A stretch of DNA of 32,811 nt, from positions 1 through 32,811 of IMG/VR virus record IMGVR_UViG_3300041809_003423; one strand, 5' to 3'. Positions within the stretch are counted from its first letter, which is position 1. Every line of letters starts with the position of its first letter. Source of the stretch: a virus. Positions 12,490-25,861 of this stretch are shown here, in pieces. Under the pieces are notes generated by a model. The model searched no databases. It saw only the letters and a program-made list of their open reading frames with translations, and had not been told where the DNA came from. The position numbers were made by a program, and so were the translations under genes.

Positions 12490-13278
12490 ATGACGACGGG
12501 AAGCGGATTTCGGCAGCCATTCGGAAAACAGCTCATAGCCGGCGACGACTGGAGCTGGAGGATCACCCTCCATCGGTACCCGCCGACCGCCTATACCCTG
12601 AAGTACTTCTTCCGAGGAAATTGCGAAAATGCGACGCTCAATGTAGTTGCCACCATCGACGAAGATGGCCAGCAGTACGATCTTGCCGTTCCCAATTCCC
12701 TGACCGAGTCGTTGCCGCCCGGCGTGTACGCCTGGCAGATGTGCGTCTTCGCCACTGACGGCGCCGGCGCGTGGCAGGCCGCCACGAACTACGAAGTCGG
12801 CGACATGGTTTACGACGGCGAGTGTTTGCAGGAGTGCACCACTCCCGGCACGTCCGGATCCGAACCGCCGACCTGGGTGGAAACGCTCAACGGAACCACC
12901 GACGACGGCACTGACGGCCCGGTCTGGACTTGTCAGGGCAAGCCGGCGCGTACCGAGCTCGATCGCGGCGACGTGGCGGTCATTCCTGACATTTCAGCGC
13001 AGACCGCGCCTTATGACGGCCGGTCCTGGCCGGTGCGCATGCTCCAGGCGGTTGAGTGCGTCCTCGAGGGGCGCGCCACCCGCGTCGAGCGCCAGTACGC
13101 CATCGCCGGCCGCGAGTTACAGCTGATGTCGAAAGACGAGCTGATGAGCTGGCGCGGCGAGCTCAAGAATCTGGTCAAGCGCGAGCTGATTGACAGCGGC
13201 CAGGATGACGGCCGCGGAAGTCATGTTCTCGCTGGTTTTGATCGCGGGGCCATCGGTCCTGGAGTGTGGAACAAATGA
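12490..13278 (+). CDS. Head-tail connector (W-like) with N-terminal beta domain and inserted CBM-like module
   Basis: The product has 262 residues. Residues ~15-90 match a phage beta domain (DDWSWRITLHRYPPTAYTLKYFF...PGVYAWQM). Residues 94-150 form a CBM5/12-like module (AWQAATNYEVGDMVYDG..., SGSEPPTW, VWTCQG). Residues ~195-250 are W-like (YAIAGRELQLMSKDELMSWRGELKNLVKREL), expected next to the portal as the head-tail joining part. There is no ribosome site before ATG 12490, so leaderless translation or a different start is possible. The stop overlaps the portal start. The inserted module is odd for a neck protein and recurs in the tail-tip protein. Confidence 0.65.
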   Translation: MTTGSGFRQPFGKQLIAGDDWSWRITLHRYPPTAYTLKYFFRGNCENATLNVVATIDEDGQQYDLAVPNSLTESLPPGVYAWQMCVFATDGAGAWQAATNYEVGDMVYDGECLQECTTPGTSGSEPPTWVETLNGTTDDGTDGPVWTCQGKPARTELDRGDVAVIPDISAQTAPYDGRSWPVRMLQAVECVLEGRATRVERQYAIAGRELQLMSKDELMSWRGELKNLVKRELIDSGQDDGRGSHVLAGFDRGAIGPGVWNK

Positions 13279-14921
13279 AGCTCCTGGATAAGTTGGCGCG
13301 CCGTTTTGGCTACGGGCCGATCAAGGCGACCACCTACGGACCGGCGCCCTTCCGCGGCGCGTCGCTGGACCGCCTCACCCGCGATTGGCCCATTGCCATT
13401 CTGTCGGCCGACCAGGAGACGCGCCTGTCGCTGCGCTTCATGCGCGGCCGCTGCCGGGTTCTGGCGCACAACAATGACTACGCGCTTCGCTTCCTCAATA
13501 AGGCCAAGGAAAATGTCATCGGGGCGAATGGGATCACGCTGGAGATGTCCTTTGACGAGGAGATCCCCGGCGCTGATCAGTTGAACCGCGCTATCGAGAC
13601 GGCATGGCAGCGCTGGGGCGAGAAGGTTTCTGCCGACGGCAAGCTCACCTTTACCGATTACTGCCAGCTGGCCATCAGCAATGTGCTGATGGATGGCGAA
13701 GTCTTCCAGCGCCGCATCGACGGCTATCCGTACAACAAGTGCCGCTTCGCGGTCGACTTTCTCGACCCCGACCAGGTCGACGAGATGTGGAACCGCTTGC
13801 GCCGGCCAGGCATGGCCGGCGTCGGCGTCGACGCCTCGCAGGAAAACGAAGTCCGCATGGGCGTCGAGAAGGACATCTGGGGTCGCCCGGTCGCCTACTG
13901 GACCTATTACGGCCATCCCTCGGAGGTGGCCGGCGTGGTGCGCGTGCGCGTTCCCGCCGAGCTACTGAATCACGCCTATGTGTTCAAGCGGGTCGCCCAG
14001 ACGCGCGGCGTTCCCTGGCTGCATACCGCCATGACCCGCATGTTCATGCTGGGCGAATACGAAGAGGCTGAGCTGGTGGCGTCGCGCCTGGCCGCCTGCA
14101 AGATGGGCTACTTCGTTTCCAAAACGGGCGAGGAGTACACCGGCGCCGGTGTCAAGCGCGAGCCCGATGCGGACGGCAAGGTGAAGCCGCTGCAGGCCGT
14201 GGTCGAGCCTGGTTCCTGGGAGGAGCTGCCCGAAAGCGTCCAGCCGATGACGGTGGACTGGCAGCATCCGAATTCTGCTTATTCCGAATTCATGCGGGCG
14301 ATGCTGCGTGGCGCCTCCATGGGCCTGAACGCCAGCTATGCCACCGTCTCCGGCGATCTGCGCGATGTGAACTTCTCCAGCCTGCGCCAGGGCGTGCTAG
14401 ACGAGCGCGAGGGCTGGAAGGCCTTGCAGGCGTTTGCACGCGATCACCTGGTGAAGCCGGTCTTCGCCTGGTGGCTGCCGATGGCCATTACCAGCGGGCA
14501 GCTGGAGATTCCGGCGTCGGTCTCTCTCGACGACATCCTCGAAAACGCGCAGTGGGGCCTGCGCGGCTGGGATTGGGTGGATCCGCTGAAGGATTCGCAG
14601 ACGTCCATCATCGGCATCCGGTCCTGCGTCTCCACCATGGCGGCCGAAGCTGGCGCCAGGGGCCGCGACTGGAGAAAGAACATCGACCAGCGCGCCAAAG
14701 AGATCGCGTATGCGAAAGCCAAGGGCGTGCCCATCGACCTGACCACCAGCGGCGCCGGCGGTGTCGAAGGCGATCTGCCCGCCGAGGATCCGGAGCGCGG
14801 CGCCGAGCCGACCAAGGCGGTTCCGGGCGCGCCTGCTCCAGGTCCTGGCCAAGCTCCTCGCGCTCCCGGTAGCAAACCGAACGGCCGTGGCGCACTTACC
14901 CACGTGAGGTTACCGCAATGA
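13275..14921 (+). CDS. Portal protein, lambda gpB family
   Basis: The protein has 548 residues. ATG 13275 (ATGA overlap) is favoured with GGAG at 13261-13264; GTG 13266 is an alternative. The sequence fits lambda-type portals: an early Arg-rich segment with HNNDYALRFLNKAKENVIGANGI, a central block (FQRRIDGYPYNKCRFAVDFLDPDQVD), and the conserved MRAMLRGASMGLNASYATVSGDLRDVNFSSLR motif. It would form the dodecameric channel at one head vertex, docking TerL and later the connector. The C-terminal ~50 residues are Pro/Gly-rich and disordered. The stop overlaps the capsid ORF start as ATGA. Confidence 0.92.
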   Translation: MKLLDKLARRFGYGPIKATTYGPAPFRGASLDRLTRDWPIAILSADQETRLSLRFMRGRCRVLAHNNDYALRFLNKAKENVIGANGITLEMSFDEEIPGADQLNRAIETAWQRWGEKVSADGKLTFTDYCQLAISNVLMDGEVFQRRIDGYPYNKCRFAVDFLDPDQVDEMWNRLRRPGMAGVGVDASQENEVRMGVEKDIWGRPVAYWTYYGHPSEVAGVVRVRVPAELLNHAYVFKRVAQTRGVPWLHTAMTRMFMLGEYEEAELVASRLAACKMGYFVSKTGEEYTGAGVKREPDADGKVKPLQAVVEPGSWEELPESVQPMTVDWQHPNSAYSEFMRAMLRGASMGLNASYATVSGDLRDVNFSSLRQGVLDEREGWKALQAFARDHLVKPVFAWWLPMAITSGQLEIPASVSLDDILENAQWGLRGWDWVDPLKDSQTSIIGIRSCVSTMAAEAGARGRDWRKNIDQRAKEIAYAKAKGVPIDLTTSGAGGVEGDLPAEDPERGAEPTKAVPGAPAPGPGQAPRAPGSKPNGRGALTHVRLPQ

Positions 14922-17881
14922 ACCTGCTGGCCTTCATCGAAGCCGCACTCTCGCAGCCCTGGGCGATCACGGATCCTGCGTATCAGGCCATCTTTGCGCT
15001 CGTGACCCGCATTGTGAGCGGAGAAGAGGTCAGCGAAGAGCAGGGTCGCATGCTGCTGGGCATCCTCAAGCCCGAATCTGCGCCGGCGGTCCTCGTGATG
15101 CCCGACGGCGCCTGCTACGACCTGAAGAGTGGCGCGCGGGTGGGCCATAATGCCGCGGCCGCGGCGGTAGCCAGCAAGTCGAACAAAGGCGTTGCTGTGG
15201 TGCCCGTGCACGGCGTCATCATGCCCCGCGGCGGATGGTTCGGCACCAGCACGGACGAGATCACGGACGACTTCCGCAAGGCGATGGCCGAGCCCAATGC
15301 CGGCTCGGTGCTGCTCGATTTCGATTCTCCCGGAGGTTCGGTCTGTGGCATTTCGGAGCTCGGCCAGGAGATCCACGCCGCCCGCTCGCAGAAACCCGTC
15401 GTCGCGCAGGTCAATCCTCAAGCCGCTTCGGCCGCGTACTGGCTTGCAAGTCAAGCCCATCAGATCGCGATGATGCCCAGTGGCGACGTCGGCTCGATCG
15501 GCGTGCGCGCCATGCATGTCGATGTGTCGAAGGCGCTGGCGGATCAGGGCATCAAGCCCACCGAGATCGCCTTCGGCAAGTACAAAACCGAGGGCTCGCC
15601 CTTTGCTCCGCTGTCGCCGGAAGGCCTGCAGCACCTGCAGGGAAGAGTCGACAGCCACGGCCAGGATTTTGTCGGCGCTGTCGCCCGCGGTCGCGGCGTC
15701 TCACAGGCCACGGTGATGGAAGGCTTCGGCCAGGGACGTCAGTTCGGCGCGCGCCAGGCGAAACAGGCCGGCATGGTAGATCACATCGGAACGTTCGACG
15801 ATACCGTCGCGCGAATGCTGCAGCATGGCGCCTCGGCGTCGGTTTACGTGGAGGCTGACATGAGCAAGTTTTTCTCGGAAGGCCCGACGCAGAAAACCAA
15901 GCGCGTCGATGGCAAGGACTGCACGAAGGACTGCTTCGCCTATCGTCCCACGGACGATCACGACGATTGGAAGTTGCCGATCAAGTCGCCCGATGGCGAT
16001 GTTGAGTGGGAGAAGTCGCACGTTCGCAACGCGCTCTCGCGCTTCGACCAGACCGACATGCCCGACGCCGAAGAGAAGGCCAAGGCGCGCGAGCGCGTCG
16101 ATGCGGCCGCCAAGAAGTACAAGATCGGGAAGTACAACGACGACCAGAAGGACGAGAAGAAAAAGTCCGCTCTGGCGCTGTTGGCCTACCCCGCAAGCGA
16201 AGCCGAGCGTCAGGCCGCTGCCTACGAGCTCGCCGGGATCCTCCTCGCCGCCGGAAAGAAACAGAAAGACGACGAGAACGACGAGGACGAAGAGGACGAG
16301 GACGAAGAGGACGACGACGAAGAGGACGACGAAGACGAGGAGGACGACGAGAAAAAGAAGAAAGCTCTCGCCGCAGCCATCCTCGCAGGAAGTTTGAATC
16401 CGGCAACAGCCGATAAGAAGGAGGTCGCAATGTCGACCACTGCTACCGAAACGGCGGCGGCTGCTGCCGCTGCTACGAAGGAGCGCGATCGCGTAAGCGC
16501 GATCACGCAACTGGCAACCATTCACAAGAAGCAGGACAGGCTGGCCGCCTGGATTTCCGCGGGCACGTCGGTGGGCGCCGTGCGCAAGGAAATTCTCGAT
16601 GGCCTGGCCGAAAGCGCCTCCGCTGCCGCGCCGCACCTGGCCGGTCGCGATGTCGGATTCCCTGGGATCCAGGTGCTCACCGACGAGCACGATCGAATCG
16701 AGAAGGATCCGAAGATGAAAGGGGCGCGTTTTGGCCGCGCTGTCCGTTGCGCTGCCATCGCTTCCATGGGAGCGCGGCGCGGCGGGGTTGCCAGTCCGGC
16801 CAAGATCGCCCGCGATGTCTTCGGCGATGCCAAGCTGGCGCAGGCCTTCGAGTCGCTGAACGGCGCGCGCATGACTTCGGACGGAGCCGGCGGCTTCACG
16901 GCCGCGACGGATCCGCAGATGGCCTCCAACTTCAGCGAGGGCGGCTTCATCATCCCGCCCAACCTGATGCCGGAAGTCATCGAGCTGCTGCGTCCGATGG
17001 CGGTCGTGCGCTCGCTGAATCCGGCCTCGGCGCCGCTCATCAACGGCACCCTGGCGTTGCCCAAGCTGACCGGGGGCACGGTCTTCAACTACATCGGTGA
17101 GGCGCAACAGGTCCCCACCAGCAAGGTCGCCGGCGGCAACGTGAAGGCCTCGGCGAAGAAGTTGGCCGGGCTGGTGCCGCTCTCCAACGACCTGCTGCGC
17201 TTCGCGTCCATTGCGGCCGACTCTATGGTCCGCGACGACATGGTGCGCGCCCTGGCGCAGGCCGAGGACATCGCCTTCATTCGCTCCCTGGGCTCGCAGT
17301 ACTCGCCCAAGGGCCTGCGCTACTGGGCGAACCCCAACGGCGTCTTCAACTCCGTGCTCACCCAGGCGGAGATCAACAGCGACACCGACCTGCAAATCCT
17401 GAAGTACGTGCAGCAGGATATCGCCAACCTGAACCTGGTCATGCGGCGCACCAACCGGCCGCCTGAGCGCCAGGCCTTCATCATGTCGCCCCGCTCGGAG
17501 TACTTCCTCATGTGGCAGGTCCGCGACGGCTACGGCAACAACCCGTTCCGCGAGGAGATGCAGCAGGGCAAGTTCAATGGCCGGCCGTACGCGGTCACCA
17601 CGCAGATTCCGGAGAACCTGTCGGTGGTCGGCAGTGGCATCGATTCGGAGATCTACTTCGCCGAGATGGCCGACGTGGTCATCTGCGAAGCTCCGACCAT
17701 CGCGGTCGAGGTCTCCAACGAGGCTGCGTACCTGGATGCCAGCGCAACCTGGCAATCGGCGTTCCAGCAGGACCAGACGCTGATCCGCATGATCGTGGAG
17801 CACGACTTGATCGTTCGCCACGACGAAACCACCTTGGTTCTCACCGGCGTCGAGTACGGCACCGGAACCGGCAGCGAATAA
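14918..17881 (+). CDS. S49 (ClpP/SppA-like) protease - scaffold - HK97 major capsid protein in one ORF
   Basis: The ORF has 987 codons without a stop. Residues ~90-300 are an S49 head-maturation protease: conserved PGGS, then QAASAAYWLAS with the nucleophile Ser171, GSIGV, and FGKYKTEGSPF carrying the partner Lys (221 or 223). Residues ~330-405 match a conserved phage segment (VDGKD...HVRNALSRF...ARERVDAAAKKY). A stretch of Asp/Glu (~450-480) follows. Residues ~640-985 are an HK97-fold capsid protein (EGGFIIPPNLMPEVIELLRP...). Lambda uses separate C/Nu3 and E genes. Two strong internal ribosome sites sit at the domain borders, so the full-length product is probably the minor one. Self-cleavage is an alternative or additional route to free capsid protein. 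Confidence 0.9.
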   Translation: MNLLAFIEAALSQPWAITDPAYQAIFALVTRIVSGEEVSEEQGRMLLGILKPESAPAVLVMPDGACYDLKSGARVGHNAAAAAVASKSNKGVAVVPVHGVIMPRGGWFGTSTDEITDDFRKAMAEPNAGSVLLDFDSPGGSVCGISELGQEIHAARSQKPVVAQVNPQAASAAYWLASQAHQIAMMPSGDVGSIGVRAMHVDVSKALADQGIKPTEIAFGKYKTEGSPFAPLSPEGLQHLQGRVDSHGQDFVGAVARGRGVSQATVMEGFGQGRQFGARQAKQAGMVDHIGTFDDTVARMLQHGASASVYVEADMSKFFSEGPTQKTKRVDGKDCTKDCFAYRPTDDHDDWKLPIKSPDGDVEWEKSHVRNALSRFDQTDMPDAEEKAKARERVDAAAKKYKIGKYNDDQKDEKKKSALALLAYPASEAERQAAAYELAGILLAAGKKQKDDENDEDEEDEDEEDDDEEDDEDEEDDEKKKKALAAAILAGSLNPATADKKEVAMSTTATETAAAAAAATKERDRVSAITQLATIHKKQDRLAAWISAGTSVGAVRKEILDGLAESASAAAPHLAGRDVGFPGIQVLTDEHDRIEKDPKMKGARFGRAVRCAAIASMGARRGGVASPAKIARDVFGDAKLAQAFESLNGARMTSDGAGGFTAATDPQMASNFSEGGFIIPPNLMPEVIELLRPMAVVRSLNPASAPLINGTLALPKLTGGTVFNYIGEAQQVPTSKVAGGNVKASAKKLAGLVPLSNDLLRFASIAADSMVRDDMVRALAQAEDIAFIRSLGSQYSPKGLRYWANPNGVFNSVLTQAEINSDTDLQILKYVQQDIANLNLVMRRTNRPPERQAFIMSPRSEYFLMWQVRDGYGNNPFREEMQQGKFNGRPYAVTTQIPENLSVVGSGIDSEIYFAEMADVVICEAPTIAVEVSNEAAYLDASATWQSAFQQDQTLIRMIVEHDLIVRHDETTLVLTGVEYGTGTGSE
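15860..17881 (+). CDS. Nested in-frame product: scaffold-like region plus capsid protein
   Basis: In-frame ATG at codon 315 of the capsid ORF, with GGAGG at 15850-15854 and a 5-base spacer. It falls immediately after the protease domain, and the predicted 673-residue product begins MSKFFSEGPTQKTK. This mirrors lambda, where scaffold Nu3 starts inside gene C. The start is inferred from the signal and its position; expression is unproven. Confidence 0.5.
   Translation: MSKFFSEGPTQKTKRVDGKDCTKDCFAYRPTDDHDDWKLPIKSPDGDVEWEKSHVRNALSRFDQTDMPDAEEKAKARERVDAAAKKYKIGKYNDDQKDEKKKSALALLAYPASEAERQAAAYELAGILLAAGKKQKDDENDEDEEDEDEEDDDEEDDEDEEDDEKKKKALAAAILAGSLNPATADKKEVAMSTTATETAAAAAAATKERDRVSAITQLATIHKKQDRLAAWISAGTSVGAVRKEILDGLAESASAAAPHLAGRDVGFPGIQVLTDEHDRIEKDPKMKGARFGRAVRCAAIASMGARRGGVASPAKIARDVFGDAKLAQAFESLNGARMTSDGAGGFTAATDPQMASNFSEGGFIIPPNLMPEVIELLRPMAVVRSLNPASAPLINGTLALPKLTGGTVFNYIGEAQQVPTSKVAGGNVKASAKKLAGLVPLSNDLLRFASIAADSMVRDDMVRALAQAEDIAFIRSLGSQYSPKGLRYWANPNGVFNSVLTQAEINSDTDLQILKYVQQDIANLNLVMRRTNRPPERQAFIMSPRSEYFLMWQVRDGYGNNPFREEMQQGKFNGRPYAVTTQIPENLSVVGSGIDSEIYFAEMADVVICEAPTIAVEVSNEAAYLDASATWQSAFQQDQTLIRMIVEHDLIVRHDETTLVLTGVEYGTGTGSE
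16304..16360 (+). repeat. Asp/Glu codon low-complexity tract
   Basis: A run of GAC, GAG and GAA codons encodes an almost pure acidic stretch between the protease/scaffold part and the capsid part of the fused ORF (the acidic segment starts earlier, near 16265). Scaffold proteins are often acidic and helical, so it may replace a delta/scaffold domain. The tract is prone to slippage but remains in frame here. Confidence 0.8.
16430..17881 (+). CDS. Nested in-frame product: HK97-fold major capsid protein
   Basis: In-frame ATG at codon 505, preceded by AAGGAGG (16418-16424) with a 5-base spacer, among the strongest ribosome sites in the window. The 483-residue product begins MSTTATETAAAAAA, then a helical N-arm and the HK97 fold, a normal length for a capsid protein with its delta region. 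Capsid protein is needed in hundreds of copies, so independent initiation here makes sense. Translation from this site is inferred, not shown. Confidence 0.65.
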   Translation: MSTTATETAAAAAAATKERDRVSAITQLATIHKKQDRLAAWISAGTSVGAVRKEILDGLAESASAAAPHLAGRDVGFPGIQVLTDEHDRIEKDPKMKGARFGRAVRCAAIASMGARRGGVASPAKIARDVFGDAKLAQAFESLNGARMTSDGAGGFTAATDPQMASNFSEGGFIIPPNLMPEVIELLRPMAVVRSLNPASAPLINGTLALPKLTGGTVFNYIGEAQQVPTSKVAGGNVKASAKKLAGLVPLSNDLLRFASIAADSMVRDDMVRALAQAEDIAFIRSLGSQYSPKGLRYWANPNGVFNSVLTQAEINSDTDLQILKYVQQDIANLNLVMRRTNRPPERQAFIMSPRSEYFLMWQVRDGYGNNPFREEMQQGKFNGRPYAVTTQIPENLSVVGSGIDSEIYFAEMADVVICEAPTIAVEVSNEAAYLDASATWQSAFQQDQTLIRMIVEHDLIVRHDETTLVLTGVEYGTGTGSE

Positions 17882-23060: not shown

Positions 23061-23113
23061 ACCCCGTTTTTTGAAACCCCTTCAGTAAAGTTTTGTTGCG
23101 GCGGAGGTGCCCT

Positions 23114-25861
23114 GTGCCTGACAACGAGGTAAAGGTAGTTATTACAGGGCAGAATGACGCCTCTCCTGCCATCCATGAGGCCTCTGAGCAGCTCGAAAAT
23201 CTTGCTGCCGTCGGTGAGCGCCTGAAGTCGGTTTTTGAGGCTTACATCGGCACGGAGATCATCTCGCGCCTCGCCGAGCTCGGCGCGTCGGCCATTGAGA
23301 CCGGCGCGAATATGGCCGAAATGGCTGAGCGCACCGGCATCAACGCCGAGGAGTTGCAGGCCCTCGCCTTTGCTGCTCAGCAGTCCGGGGTTTCCACGGA
23401 CACCTTTGAGAGGGGCGTGCGCAAGCTGCAGGCGACGCTCACCCAGGCAGCGGAGGGGAACGCGAAGGCTGCCGCGGCTCTCGCGGCTGTCGGAGTCAGC
23501 GCGCGCAACTCGTCTGGCGGCCTGACCACCGCCGGCCAGGCTCTTGACAAGATCGCTCAGAAGTTCAAGAGCACGGCGGACGGCACGGCTAAGGCCGGGC
23601 TCGCCATCCAGATTTTCGGGCGGTCGGGCACCTCCATGATTCCGATGCTGAATCAGGGCTCCGATGGCCTTGAGGCGCTCGAGAAGCGCGCAAAGGATCT
23701 CGGGTTGGTGCTCAGCGGCGAGGACCTTGAGGCGCTGAAAGATGTCAGCCATGCCTTTGCCGAGACTAAGGCGACCTCTGTCGCGCTAATGGAACATCTG
23801 GTCGCTGGACTGGCGCCTGCCCTCGAGAGCACGGCCAACGCGCTGAGCGAGCAGTTCGCCGCCCAGATGGGGGTCGCGACGCAGGCCGGCATGGGCCTGG
23901 TAAACATGTTGAAGGCCGCGATTACCCTGGTCGACGCGTTCGCGATCGACGTGGAATGGGCCGGGGAAAAGGTCGCGAAGCAGTGGGAAATCATGGGCGA
24001 TGCCGCCGCGCTGCATTTCGGTAAGGCTTTTCATGATGCGCTGCAATTCACTGGAATTGAGAACGACCCGCAAGCGCAGGCGATTAACGACAGCTTCCGC
24101 AAATTCTTCGAGACTATGTGGTCGGGCGCTACGGCTCAGGTAAAGGGATCAAACGATCTTACTGATCTCGTCGTCGAGGCGGCGGATAAGAGCAAGGAGA
24201 TCACTAAGGAACTTCTCGAATATCAGCTCGCCGCCATCAAGGCCGGCGAGACTGCGCTGAAGGCCGCAAACGAGCGCGAAGAGCAGGAGAACGAGAACCT
24301 CTACAAACACAACTTAAAGTCGGTCGATGACTATTACAAGGCAAAGAAGCAGCTCGCCGTCGACGAAATCCAGATCGAGATGTACGCGCTCGAGCAGGAA
24401 GGCAGGCTATACGATCAAGCGCTCGGTGCGCTGACCGGTCTCCATCCGGCTGAGGTGGCCCGCGTGCAGGCGCTGCTCCAGCAGGGAAAGCTCGACGATG
24501 CGGCTCTTGCTCGCATGCCGAAGATCAAGGCAAGTCTCTCCGAGATCGTCGAAGTGATGACCAAGCAGATGCAGGTGGCGACGCAGCTGGACACCCTGCA
24601 GAAGAAGCTGAACGCGGCGCAGGACCTGACGCCCAGCGGTCAAGTGGATTCCCTGGCGCGACTCGCCGACTCTGAGGACATCGCCGCCGCGAAAGCCAAG
24701 CTGCTCGGGGACGCGATCCAGGCTACCTTCGACAAGATCAAGGACCAGACGGACCTGGTCAAGCAGAAGATGGAGACCTTCGCCATCGGTGGTATTGAGG
24801 GCCAGAAGGAACTCAATGCCGTTCTGAAGCAGGGCTCGCAGCAGTTGCAGACCATGATCGCGGACTACCAGAAGCTGGCCGCGGCCGCCGGCGATCCCCG
24901 GCTGGTCACCGAAGGGCAGAAGTTCGAGACCCAGCTTGACCAGATGAACCTGAAGGTGCACACCCTGGCGCAGACCCTGGCGCAGGAAGGCACGCAGAAC
25001 ATTGAGAATTTTCTGGGCGCCATCGAAAAGGCTCCCAATGCCGCCAAGGCCTTCGAGCAGTTCGGCATGTCGATCCTGGAGATGCTAGCCAAGATCATCA
25101 ATCAGATGATCGCCACCTGGATCATCGAGAAGGCGATCGGCATCGCCGGCGGGATCGGTGGGGCTGCCGGCGGCGGCGGCGGTGCGACCTCGATCGGCAG
25201 TGACATCAACCCGGCTCCTACGAATTCGGCTGGCGTGCTGGGCACGGTGCCCGGCTTTGCCGAAGGCGGTGAGCCGCCGGTGGGCGAGCCTTCGGTCGTC
25301 GGCGAAGAAGGCATGGAGCTGTTCGTTCCCCACGTCGCCGGCACCATCGTTCCCCACGAGGAAACCATGCGGCGGCTGACGGCTTCGGCCGCGGCGCCGC
25401 TGCCCGAGGCCAGCCCCGAATTCATGGGCGACTTCATGGAGCGCATGGCGCACATGTCGAGTAGCCTGGACCACAGCGCGGATGCGCTGGTGGCGCATCT
25501 GCAGACGTCTGCACCAGGCGTGGTTTCGCGGCTGGACCCCTCCGGGCTGTTCGGCGTGCACGCCATTCCCCATGCCCTGGGAGGGGACATGGATCCCGGC
25601 GACGTCGGCCTGGTCGGCGATGCCGGCCCGGAGCTGTTTGTCCCCGATACGCCCGGTCGCGTGATCCCCAACAACCTGGTTGGCGATGCGCTGTCGGGCG
25701 GCGGCGGCGACGTGCACAACCACATGAACATTGACGCGCGCGGCGCCAACGCGGAGACGGAGATGCACCTGCGCAGGTATGTCGACCAGGCGATGGACCG
25801 ATGGAGCGCGATCACGCGAGTGCAGATTCGAGAGAACGGACTCAGGAGGAACCGGCGCTAA
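23114..25861 (+). CDS. Tape measure protein
   Basis: GTG 23114 is chosen because GGAGG at 23103-23107 is six bases upstream. The 915-residue protein has long helical/coiled-coil regions (EQLENLAAVGERLKSVFEAYIG..., AAIKAGETALKAANEREEQENENL...), a central hydrophobic segment (~250-290), and two C-terminal copies of the tape-measure signature: GEEGMELFVPHVAGTIVPHEE (~730-750) and GDAGPELFVPDTPGRVIPNNL (~835-855). It sets tail length. At the commonly used 1.5 Angstrom per residue this predicts a tail of roughly 135 nm. It is chaperoned by G/GT immediately upstream. Confidence 0.9.
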   Translation: MPDNEVKVVITGQNDASPAIHEASEQLENLAAVGERLKSVFEAYIGTEIISRLAELGASAIETGANMAEMAERTGINAEELQALAFAAQQSGVSTDTFERGVRKLQATLTQAAEGNAKAAAALAAVGVSARNSSGGLTTAGQALDKIAQKFKSTADGTAKAGLAIQIFGRSGTSMIPMLNQGSDGLEALEKRAKDLGLVLSGEDLEALKDVSHAFAETKATSVALMEHLVAGLAPALESTANALSEQFAAQMGVATQAGMGLVNMLKAAITLVDAFAIDVEWAGEKVAKQWEIMGDAAALHFGKAFHDALQFTGIENDPQAQAINDSFRKFFETMWSGATAQVKGSNDLTDLVVEAADKSKEITKELLEYQLAAIKAGETALKAANEREEQENENLYKHNLKSVDDYYKAKKQLAVDEIQIEMYALEQEGRLYDQALGALTGLHPAEVARVQALLQQGKLDDAALARMPKIKASLSEIVEVMTKQMQVATQLDTLQKKLNAAQDLTPSGQVDSLARLADSEDIAAAKAKLLGDAIQATFDKIKDQTDLVKQKMETFAIGGIEGQKELNAVLKQGSQQLQTMIADYQKLAAAAGDPRLVTEGQKFETQLDQMNLKVHTLAQTLAQEGTQNIENFLGAIEKAPNAAKAFEQFGMSILEMLAKIINQMIATWIIEKAIGIAGGIGGAAGGGGGATSIGSDINPAPTNSAGVLGTVPGFAEGGEPPVGEPSVVGEEGMELFVPHVAGTIVPHEETMRRLTASAAAPLPEASPEFMGDFMERMAHMSSSLDHSADALVAHLQTSAPGVVSRLDPSGLFGVHAIPHALGGDMDPGDVGLVGDAGPELFVPDTPGRVIPNNLVGDALSGGGGDVHNHMNIDARGANAETEMHLRRYVDQAMDRWSAITRVQIRENGLRRNRR

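Follow-up and report, generated by a model that had tools for sequence, protein, structure and literature searches.

A viral protease-capsid fusion gene with internal in-frame ATGs: a probable nested capsid gene and recurring start signals at the protease/capsid border

Does a phage gene that holds a head protease and a major capsid protein in one reading frame yield a single protein, or several proteins that share their C-terminus? The question is raised by a viral contig of 32,811 nucleotides (IMG/VR record IMGVR_UViG_3300041809_003423, the whole of which we refer to as the window), where a 987-codon ORF follows directly on the portal gene (Table 1). Fusion genes of this kind are now annotated as a single 'major capsid protein' or 'head protease'; if so, every subunit of the shell would come with a protease. 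An uninterrupted ORF from an S49 protease to an HK97-type capsid had been predicted here from the DNA letters, and both the sequence and the domain matches bear this out. Codon-position GC shows a constant phase over the whole of 14918-17881, also through the middle and acidic region, so that the three parts are common to one frame and no frameshift is needed to join them. A frameshift artefact was considered and ruled out on the constancy of this phase over the whole fusion ORF. Two stop codons in another frame (TGA at 15856 and TAA at 16414) lie shortly 5' of the internal starts at 15860 and 16430, respectively.

Table 1. Coordinates in the window of the portal gene, the fusion ORF, its parts and its internal start signals.
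Feature	Position	Strand	Remarks
Lambda-family portal gene, directly 5' of the fusion	13266..14921	+	Phage_portal_2 E 8e-84; best start probably ATG 13275
987-codon fusion ORF	14918..17881	+	S49 protease, DUF6582-like/acidic segment, pre-capsid N-terminus, HK97 capsid
N-terminal S49 head-maturation protease part	14918..15859	+	Pfam S49 at residues 155-302
Internal SD GGAGG and ATG 15860 (codon 315), candidate middle start	15850..15862	+	Pairing -9.3 kcal/mol, second best ATG
Middle segment: DUF6582-like domain and acidic tract (~16269-16361)	15860..16429	+	Pfam match at residues 366-403, sub-threshold
Internal SD AAGGAGG and ATG 16430 (codon 505), probable capsid start	16418..16432	+	Best-pairing, most accessible ATG of the ORF
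Pre-capsid N-terminus of the capsid product, ~170 aa	16430..16939	+	Precedes the Pfam capsid match at product residue 171
HK97-fold major capsid domain (residues 675-971)	16940..17830	+	PF05065 E 3.7e-27; TIGR01554 E 1.9e-33

The protease part of the ORF matches PF01343 (Peptidase S49, E 2.8e-35) and phrog_53, head maturation protease (E 1.7e-86). Residues S171 and K223, which we take to be the catalytic dyad by analogy with SppA, fall in nearly invariant columns of the alignment with relatives, as befits an S49 head-maturation protease. A ClpP-related head protease model scored 17 bits on the window against a cut-off of 120, which places the protease outside the ClpP type. At the C-terminal end, the Phage_capsid and TIGR01554 matches extend over the fold and identify an HK97-family major capsid protein, and the domain additionally matches phrog_10 and phrog_617, major head protein. 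With either the full protein or the capsid alone as query, no close relatives were found in viral and genome contigs, and the DNA matches of named phages to the window are short and of 67-74% only.

Two internal in-frame ATGs had also been predicted, at 15860 (GGAGG) and 16430 (AAGGAGG), each with a 5-base spacer, and both are present in that form, the SD motifs lying at 15850-15854 and 16418-16424 and the predicted products measuring 673 and 483 aa. When starts were ranked by the duplex energy of the upstream 11 bases to the 16S tail, these two took ranks 2 and 1 among the 28 ATGs of the ORF. Pairing at ATG 16430 reaches -12.6 kcal/mol, a value that, like all SD energies given here, was computed with an E. 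coli-type 16S tail, from which the tails of the hosts may differ. Local RNA folding makes ATG 16430 the most accessible of the 28 as well, and gives an accessibility of 0.35 around 15860, under the ORF mean of 0.41. Pairing of this strength is rare in the contig: of 767 ATGs on both strands 2 reach -12.5 and 17 reach -9.2, and upstream pairing is -9.3 or better at 8 of 927 in-frame codons and -12.6 or better at 1 of 927. If the internal ATGs were randomly placed, the chance that the two best of 27 would be both border ATGs is about 1 in 350. The start of the ORF itself, ATG 14918, pairs at -6.9 kcal/mol, worse than both border ATGs. The portal TGA (14919-14921) overlaps this ATG (14918-14920) as ATGA, and because of this overlap the full-length start is probably coupled to translation of the portal gene. 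Elsewhere in the window (23093-25861) a tape-measure-like ORF has its best start at GTG 23114, which pairs at -12.7 kcal/mol, an SD among the strongest of the gene starts examined in the contig.

Whether 16430 is truly a domain border, as had been claimed, depends on what is taken as the border. The separate capsid genes of relatives begin approximately there, but the Pfam capsid match begins 170 aa later. The nearest named phages (PY54, phiKO2, PG1, RcapNL, BgVeeders33 and Marinobacter AS1) have an S49 gene, a stop and then a capsid gene, and by alignment the capsid genes of PG1, phiKO2, RcapNL and BgVeeders33 start at about the equivalent of ATG 16430. In PY54, phiKO2 and RcapNL, as in the window, the portal is followed first by a homologous S49 protease and then by a homologous capsid, but these are two genes split by a stop, and the DUF6582-like segment is missing. 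Since the Pfam capsid domain begins at residue 171, the 483-residue product has a long HK97 delta-like N-terminal region. This region holds a conserved ERxRV..I motif, aligned across five fused sequences, and its position suggests a delta-domain or scaffold-like part. It is a likelier scaffold than the middle segment, to which the original prediction had assigned that role; the middle segment has a weak DUF6582 match and an acidic tract, no scaffold family matched it, and a scaffold is not recognisable there. In view of its sequence signals and of the recurrence of such signals in other fusions, the capsid start at 16430 is very probably functional.

The capsid family represented in the window also contains other fused genes. 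Viral contigs yielded 80 relatives in a profile scan, and a second pair of scans added two sequences (L134 and L097). The four best matches of the profile scan are all fusions, two with an S49 protease (L019, L020) and two with an S78 protease (L017, L018); L134 is an S78-capsid fusion in a bacterial genome, and L097 has an open 5' end. All six of these further family members, the five fusions and L097, have at the capsid border an in-frame ATG and an SD. The SD is AGGAGG in L019 and L020 (5-base spacer), GAGGAG in L017, L018 and L134, and GGAGGT in L097. In a maximum-likelihood tree of the capsid family the fusions are spread over more than one clade: well supported branches force at least three changes, and the window, with its S49 protease, groups with S78-fused capsids at moderate support. 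The count of independent fusions is approximate, as the unlabelled L103 in the tree is a partial contig near-identical to L018. Because the fusions are not one clade and the attached protease varies, the border start appears to be kept across different fusions. Among 7 genomes with strong matches in the phylum of the genome that carries L134, no further S49-capsid fusion was found. L017, L018 and L134 share a conserved cysteine-rich acidic linker, metal-binding in appearance, between the S78 protease and the capsid start.

For a broader view of the border we compiled 80 non-redundant fusions (77 S78 and 3 S49), with those at least 85% identical removed. The S78 fusions comprise those of VP882, ep3, PPpW-3, Alexa, FoX2, CRP-811, S-LBS1, Persinger, IME307, JLK-2012, FSL SP-016 and RHph_X2_26 as well as further contigs; they were gathered with fused queries, are biased to relatives of these queries, and carry no information on the frequency of fusion. 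None of the 80 lacks an in-frame ATG in the linker from protease to capsid; in 69 of them such an ATG has SD pairing of -5 kcal/mol or better, and in the other 11 the best border SD is weaker. ATGs that pair at -8 or better number 22 of 237 in the linkers, compared with 7 of 1008 in the rest of these ORFs (Fisher P 3e-11). The first ATG after the protease, picked blind to its SD, has a mean pairing of -5.8 kcal/mol, where the remaining linker codons average -1.7 (Wilcoxon P 9e-13); when it is ranked among the codons of its linker, its median position is the 5.5th percentile. This border pairing also beats synonymous-codon shuffles (-5.8 vs -3.7, P 3e-10, where this and the preceding P values overstate independence, the sequences being related), which ATGs of the capsid domain do not. 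The window contributes nothing to the first-ATG and shuffle signals, its first linker Met being neither 15860 nor 16430. The recurrence of the border start with different proteases is a stronger argument than the P values. An acidic or E-rich linker composition was rejected as the source of SD-like sequence, since the other linker codons do not show the pairing and part of it disappears on synonymous shuffling. In 53 of 63 high-GC fusions (P 8e-9) the capsid part has a higher third-position GC than the protease part, and so it does in the window (0.92 vs 0.78). This fits more translation of the capsid part, but a higher codon bias is also expected of any recently fused capsid gene.

Gifsy-2 reportedly has a "tripartite capsid gene", and the window ORF likewise runs uninterrupted from a protease through a central region to an HK97 capsid. 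Gifsy-2, MD8 gp5, mEp460 and F10 have these parts in one gene directly after the portal, as does the window, and in four sequences of this kind an in-frame ATG with SD directly follows the protease (pairing at -8.3 kcal/mol in Gifsy-2, -6.9 in MD8, -7.9 in yong2 and -5.7 in mEp460). An ATG with SD likewise follows closely on the protease in two further ClpP-type loci from genomes (L265 and L267). The Gifsy-2 kind differs from the window in its protease, which is of the ClpP fold and not S49, in its capsid subfamily, and in that no DUF6582-like segment was seen. A second ATG with good SD pairing, at codon 185 in MD8 (L256) and codon 186 in Gifsy-2 (L257), lies inside the ClpP motif KEETWM / AKETWM and probably reflects an amino-acid constraint rather than a start. 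S78 (U35) fusions such as VP882, ep3, PPpW-3, Alexa, FoX2 and JLK-2012 resemble the window in being one ORF, mostly with a border ATG and SD, although their protease family is unrelated and they have a single internal border start; S-LBS1 and Alexa have a weak border SD or none. Some S78 fusions carry additional N-terminal sequence. The 816-aa S78-capsid fusion of Roseobacter phage CRP-811 (L159, 1784-4234) has an extra stretch ahead of the protease, part of which matches Hva1_TUDOR (E 1.8e-5), and in L153 (3127-4479) an additional N-terminal domain of unassigned kind precedes the S78 protease.

In the 3 S49, 77 S78 and several ClpP-type fusions, then, an in-frame start has been retained at the border to the capsid, in most cases preceded by an SD. 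The original prediction had regarded its three-tier start arrangement as unusual; starts are the rule at the protease/capsid border, and from the sequences compared a border start at the protease/capsid junction is very probably general. In the parts of the literature available to us, protease-scaffold-capsid genes are described for MD8 gp5 (PMC8508860) and for Microbacterium clusters EE and EL (PMC7302621), and protease(-scaffold)-capsid single-gene fusions for Arthrobacter AM, AU and AN (PMC5513430); by these published descriptions, Microbacterium EE and Arthrobacter AM/AU/AN are like the window in being single-gene fusions. An in-frame embedded gene is also described in another phage module, the Ms6 lysin, in the part of that source available (PMC3111421). 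Mention of an internal start was not found in the available parts of the MD8 paper (PMC8508860), nor in the passages covered of the Microbacterium EE and Arthrobacter papers (PMC7302621, PMC5513430). More generally, neither internal starts in protease-capsid fusions nor a three-tier, three-start co-terminal arrangement was found in the literature covered, which consisted largely of papers outside subscription. The protease-capsid fusion itself is thus already known, while the conserved border start may be new as a general pattern.

How might such a gene work? In lambda C/Nu3, Mu I/Z and herpesvirus UL26/UL26.5 an internal in-frame start gives a shorter product that is co-terminal with a long protease product, and the common C-terminal part carries the protease into the prohead. 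By its sequence signals, an in-frame internal start with SD and a predicted co-terminal shorter protein, the window gene resembles the lambda C/Nu3 kind, with the difference that the part shared in those systems is the scaffold and the capsid is separate, whereas here the shared part is the capsid. The portal is a 12-copy protein, and the shell requires hundreds of capsid copies. From the observed frame, domains, start signals and their recurrence we infer the initiation, product ratios, co-assembly and cleavage of a nested, 3'-co-terminal capsid gene, with a minor full-length protease-capsid protein and the bulk of the capsid made from 16430; we put the probability of this reading at roughly 0.78. 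ATG 14918, coupled to the portal and with a modest SD, would give the minor full-length protein, and ATG 16430, with the strongest SD and the greatest accessibility, most of the major capsid protein, whose first 170 residues would act as an HK97-like delta or scaffold part. A few full-length copies would co-assemble with plain capsid through the common capsid part and so bring the protease into the prohead, much as lambda gpC enters by way of the Nu3 part that it shares. Afterwards, the protease would cut off itself and the N-terminal region. ATG 15860 may give a third product consisting of the DUF6582-like, acidic and capsid parts.

We extend this only tentatively, and with somewhat less than even confidence, to tailed-phage protease-capsid fusions in general, in which the border start might supply most of the capsid and the fusion might serve as a minor, co-assembling protease carrier, the window adding three co-terminal products. 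If this were true, a conserved internal start would set a low protease-to-capsid ratio within one gene, and the border start would show how the fusion is tolerated and why it recurs and swaps proteases. Use of the border start would be predicted in mEp460, MD8, VP882 and Gifsy-2, and the capsid start would be misassigned in many annotated phages.

The same ORF could instead encode a polyprotein only, that is, a stoichiometric 987-aa protein cut at its borders by the S49 protease, with the internal SD-ATGs as relics of separate genes. HK97-type capsids are indeed cut N-terminally by their protease, and as relatives have separate protease and capsid genes, the fusion could plausibly have arisen when the stop between two neighbouring genes was lost. 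Relics should decay, yet across 80 diverse fusions the border SD pairs better than after synonymous shuffling, and it is found with three protease families. A prohead loaded with as many proteases as capsid subunits would also be unusual, and we consider a polyprotein alone unlikely. It is far less probable still that three separate genes were read as a single ORF through an error of assembly or sequencing. Such an error might be suspected in a metagenomic contig of which no near-identical second copy was found, and in which out-of-frame stops stand just before both internal starts, but the single coding phase speaks against it, as do fusions of the same capsid family in independent contigs and in one bacterial genome.

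Within the nested reading, rather than in competition with it, there is the question whether the gene has only two tiers, with 16430 working and ATG 15860 idle, its SD being due to chance or a relic. The odds seem to us evenly balanced. For two tiers speak that a second fused homologue with the order S49-DUF6582-capsid was not found in viral contigs and genomes, that the closest S49 fusions (L019 and L020) are without the DUF6582-like segment, and that accessibility at 15860 is under the mean. Against this, fewer than 1% of in-frame codons reach an SD energy of -9.3, and a gene with the same domain begins close to this point in three other sequences (L244-L246). Of the three-tier arrangement originally predicted, the capsid start at 16430 is therefore supported, while the middle start rests on an SD in one sequence, from which we give its use about even odds. 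The domain itself matches DUF6582 (PF20223) with E 4e-4 and 21.2 bits, below the gathering cut-off of 27.3, hence our term "DUF6582-like". Phage THSA-485A encodes a head-region protein with a similar domain (48% identity over 68 residues); this protein had no Pfam match, and the domain sits behind a stretch that we take for a protease. Outside the window, the middle segment has its closest relative in L244-L246 at the N-terminus of an 866-codon frame, whose start codon, at most 7 codons from the equivalent of ATG 15860, opens a gene with the same DUF6582-like domain. ATG 15860 may thus be the former start of a joined-in gene, and may perhaps still work. In L244 (363-2963) and in L245 and L246 (4980-7580) one frame runs from the DUF6582-like domain through an acidic linker to an S78 protease and then the capsid, and at the protease/capsid border a GTG start follows AAGGAAGG.
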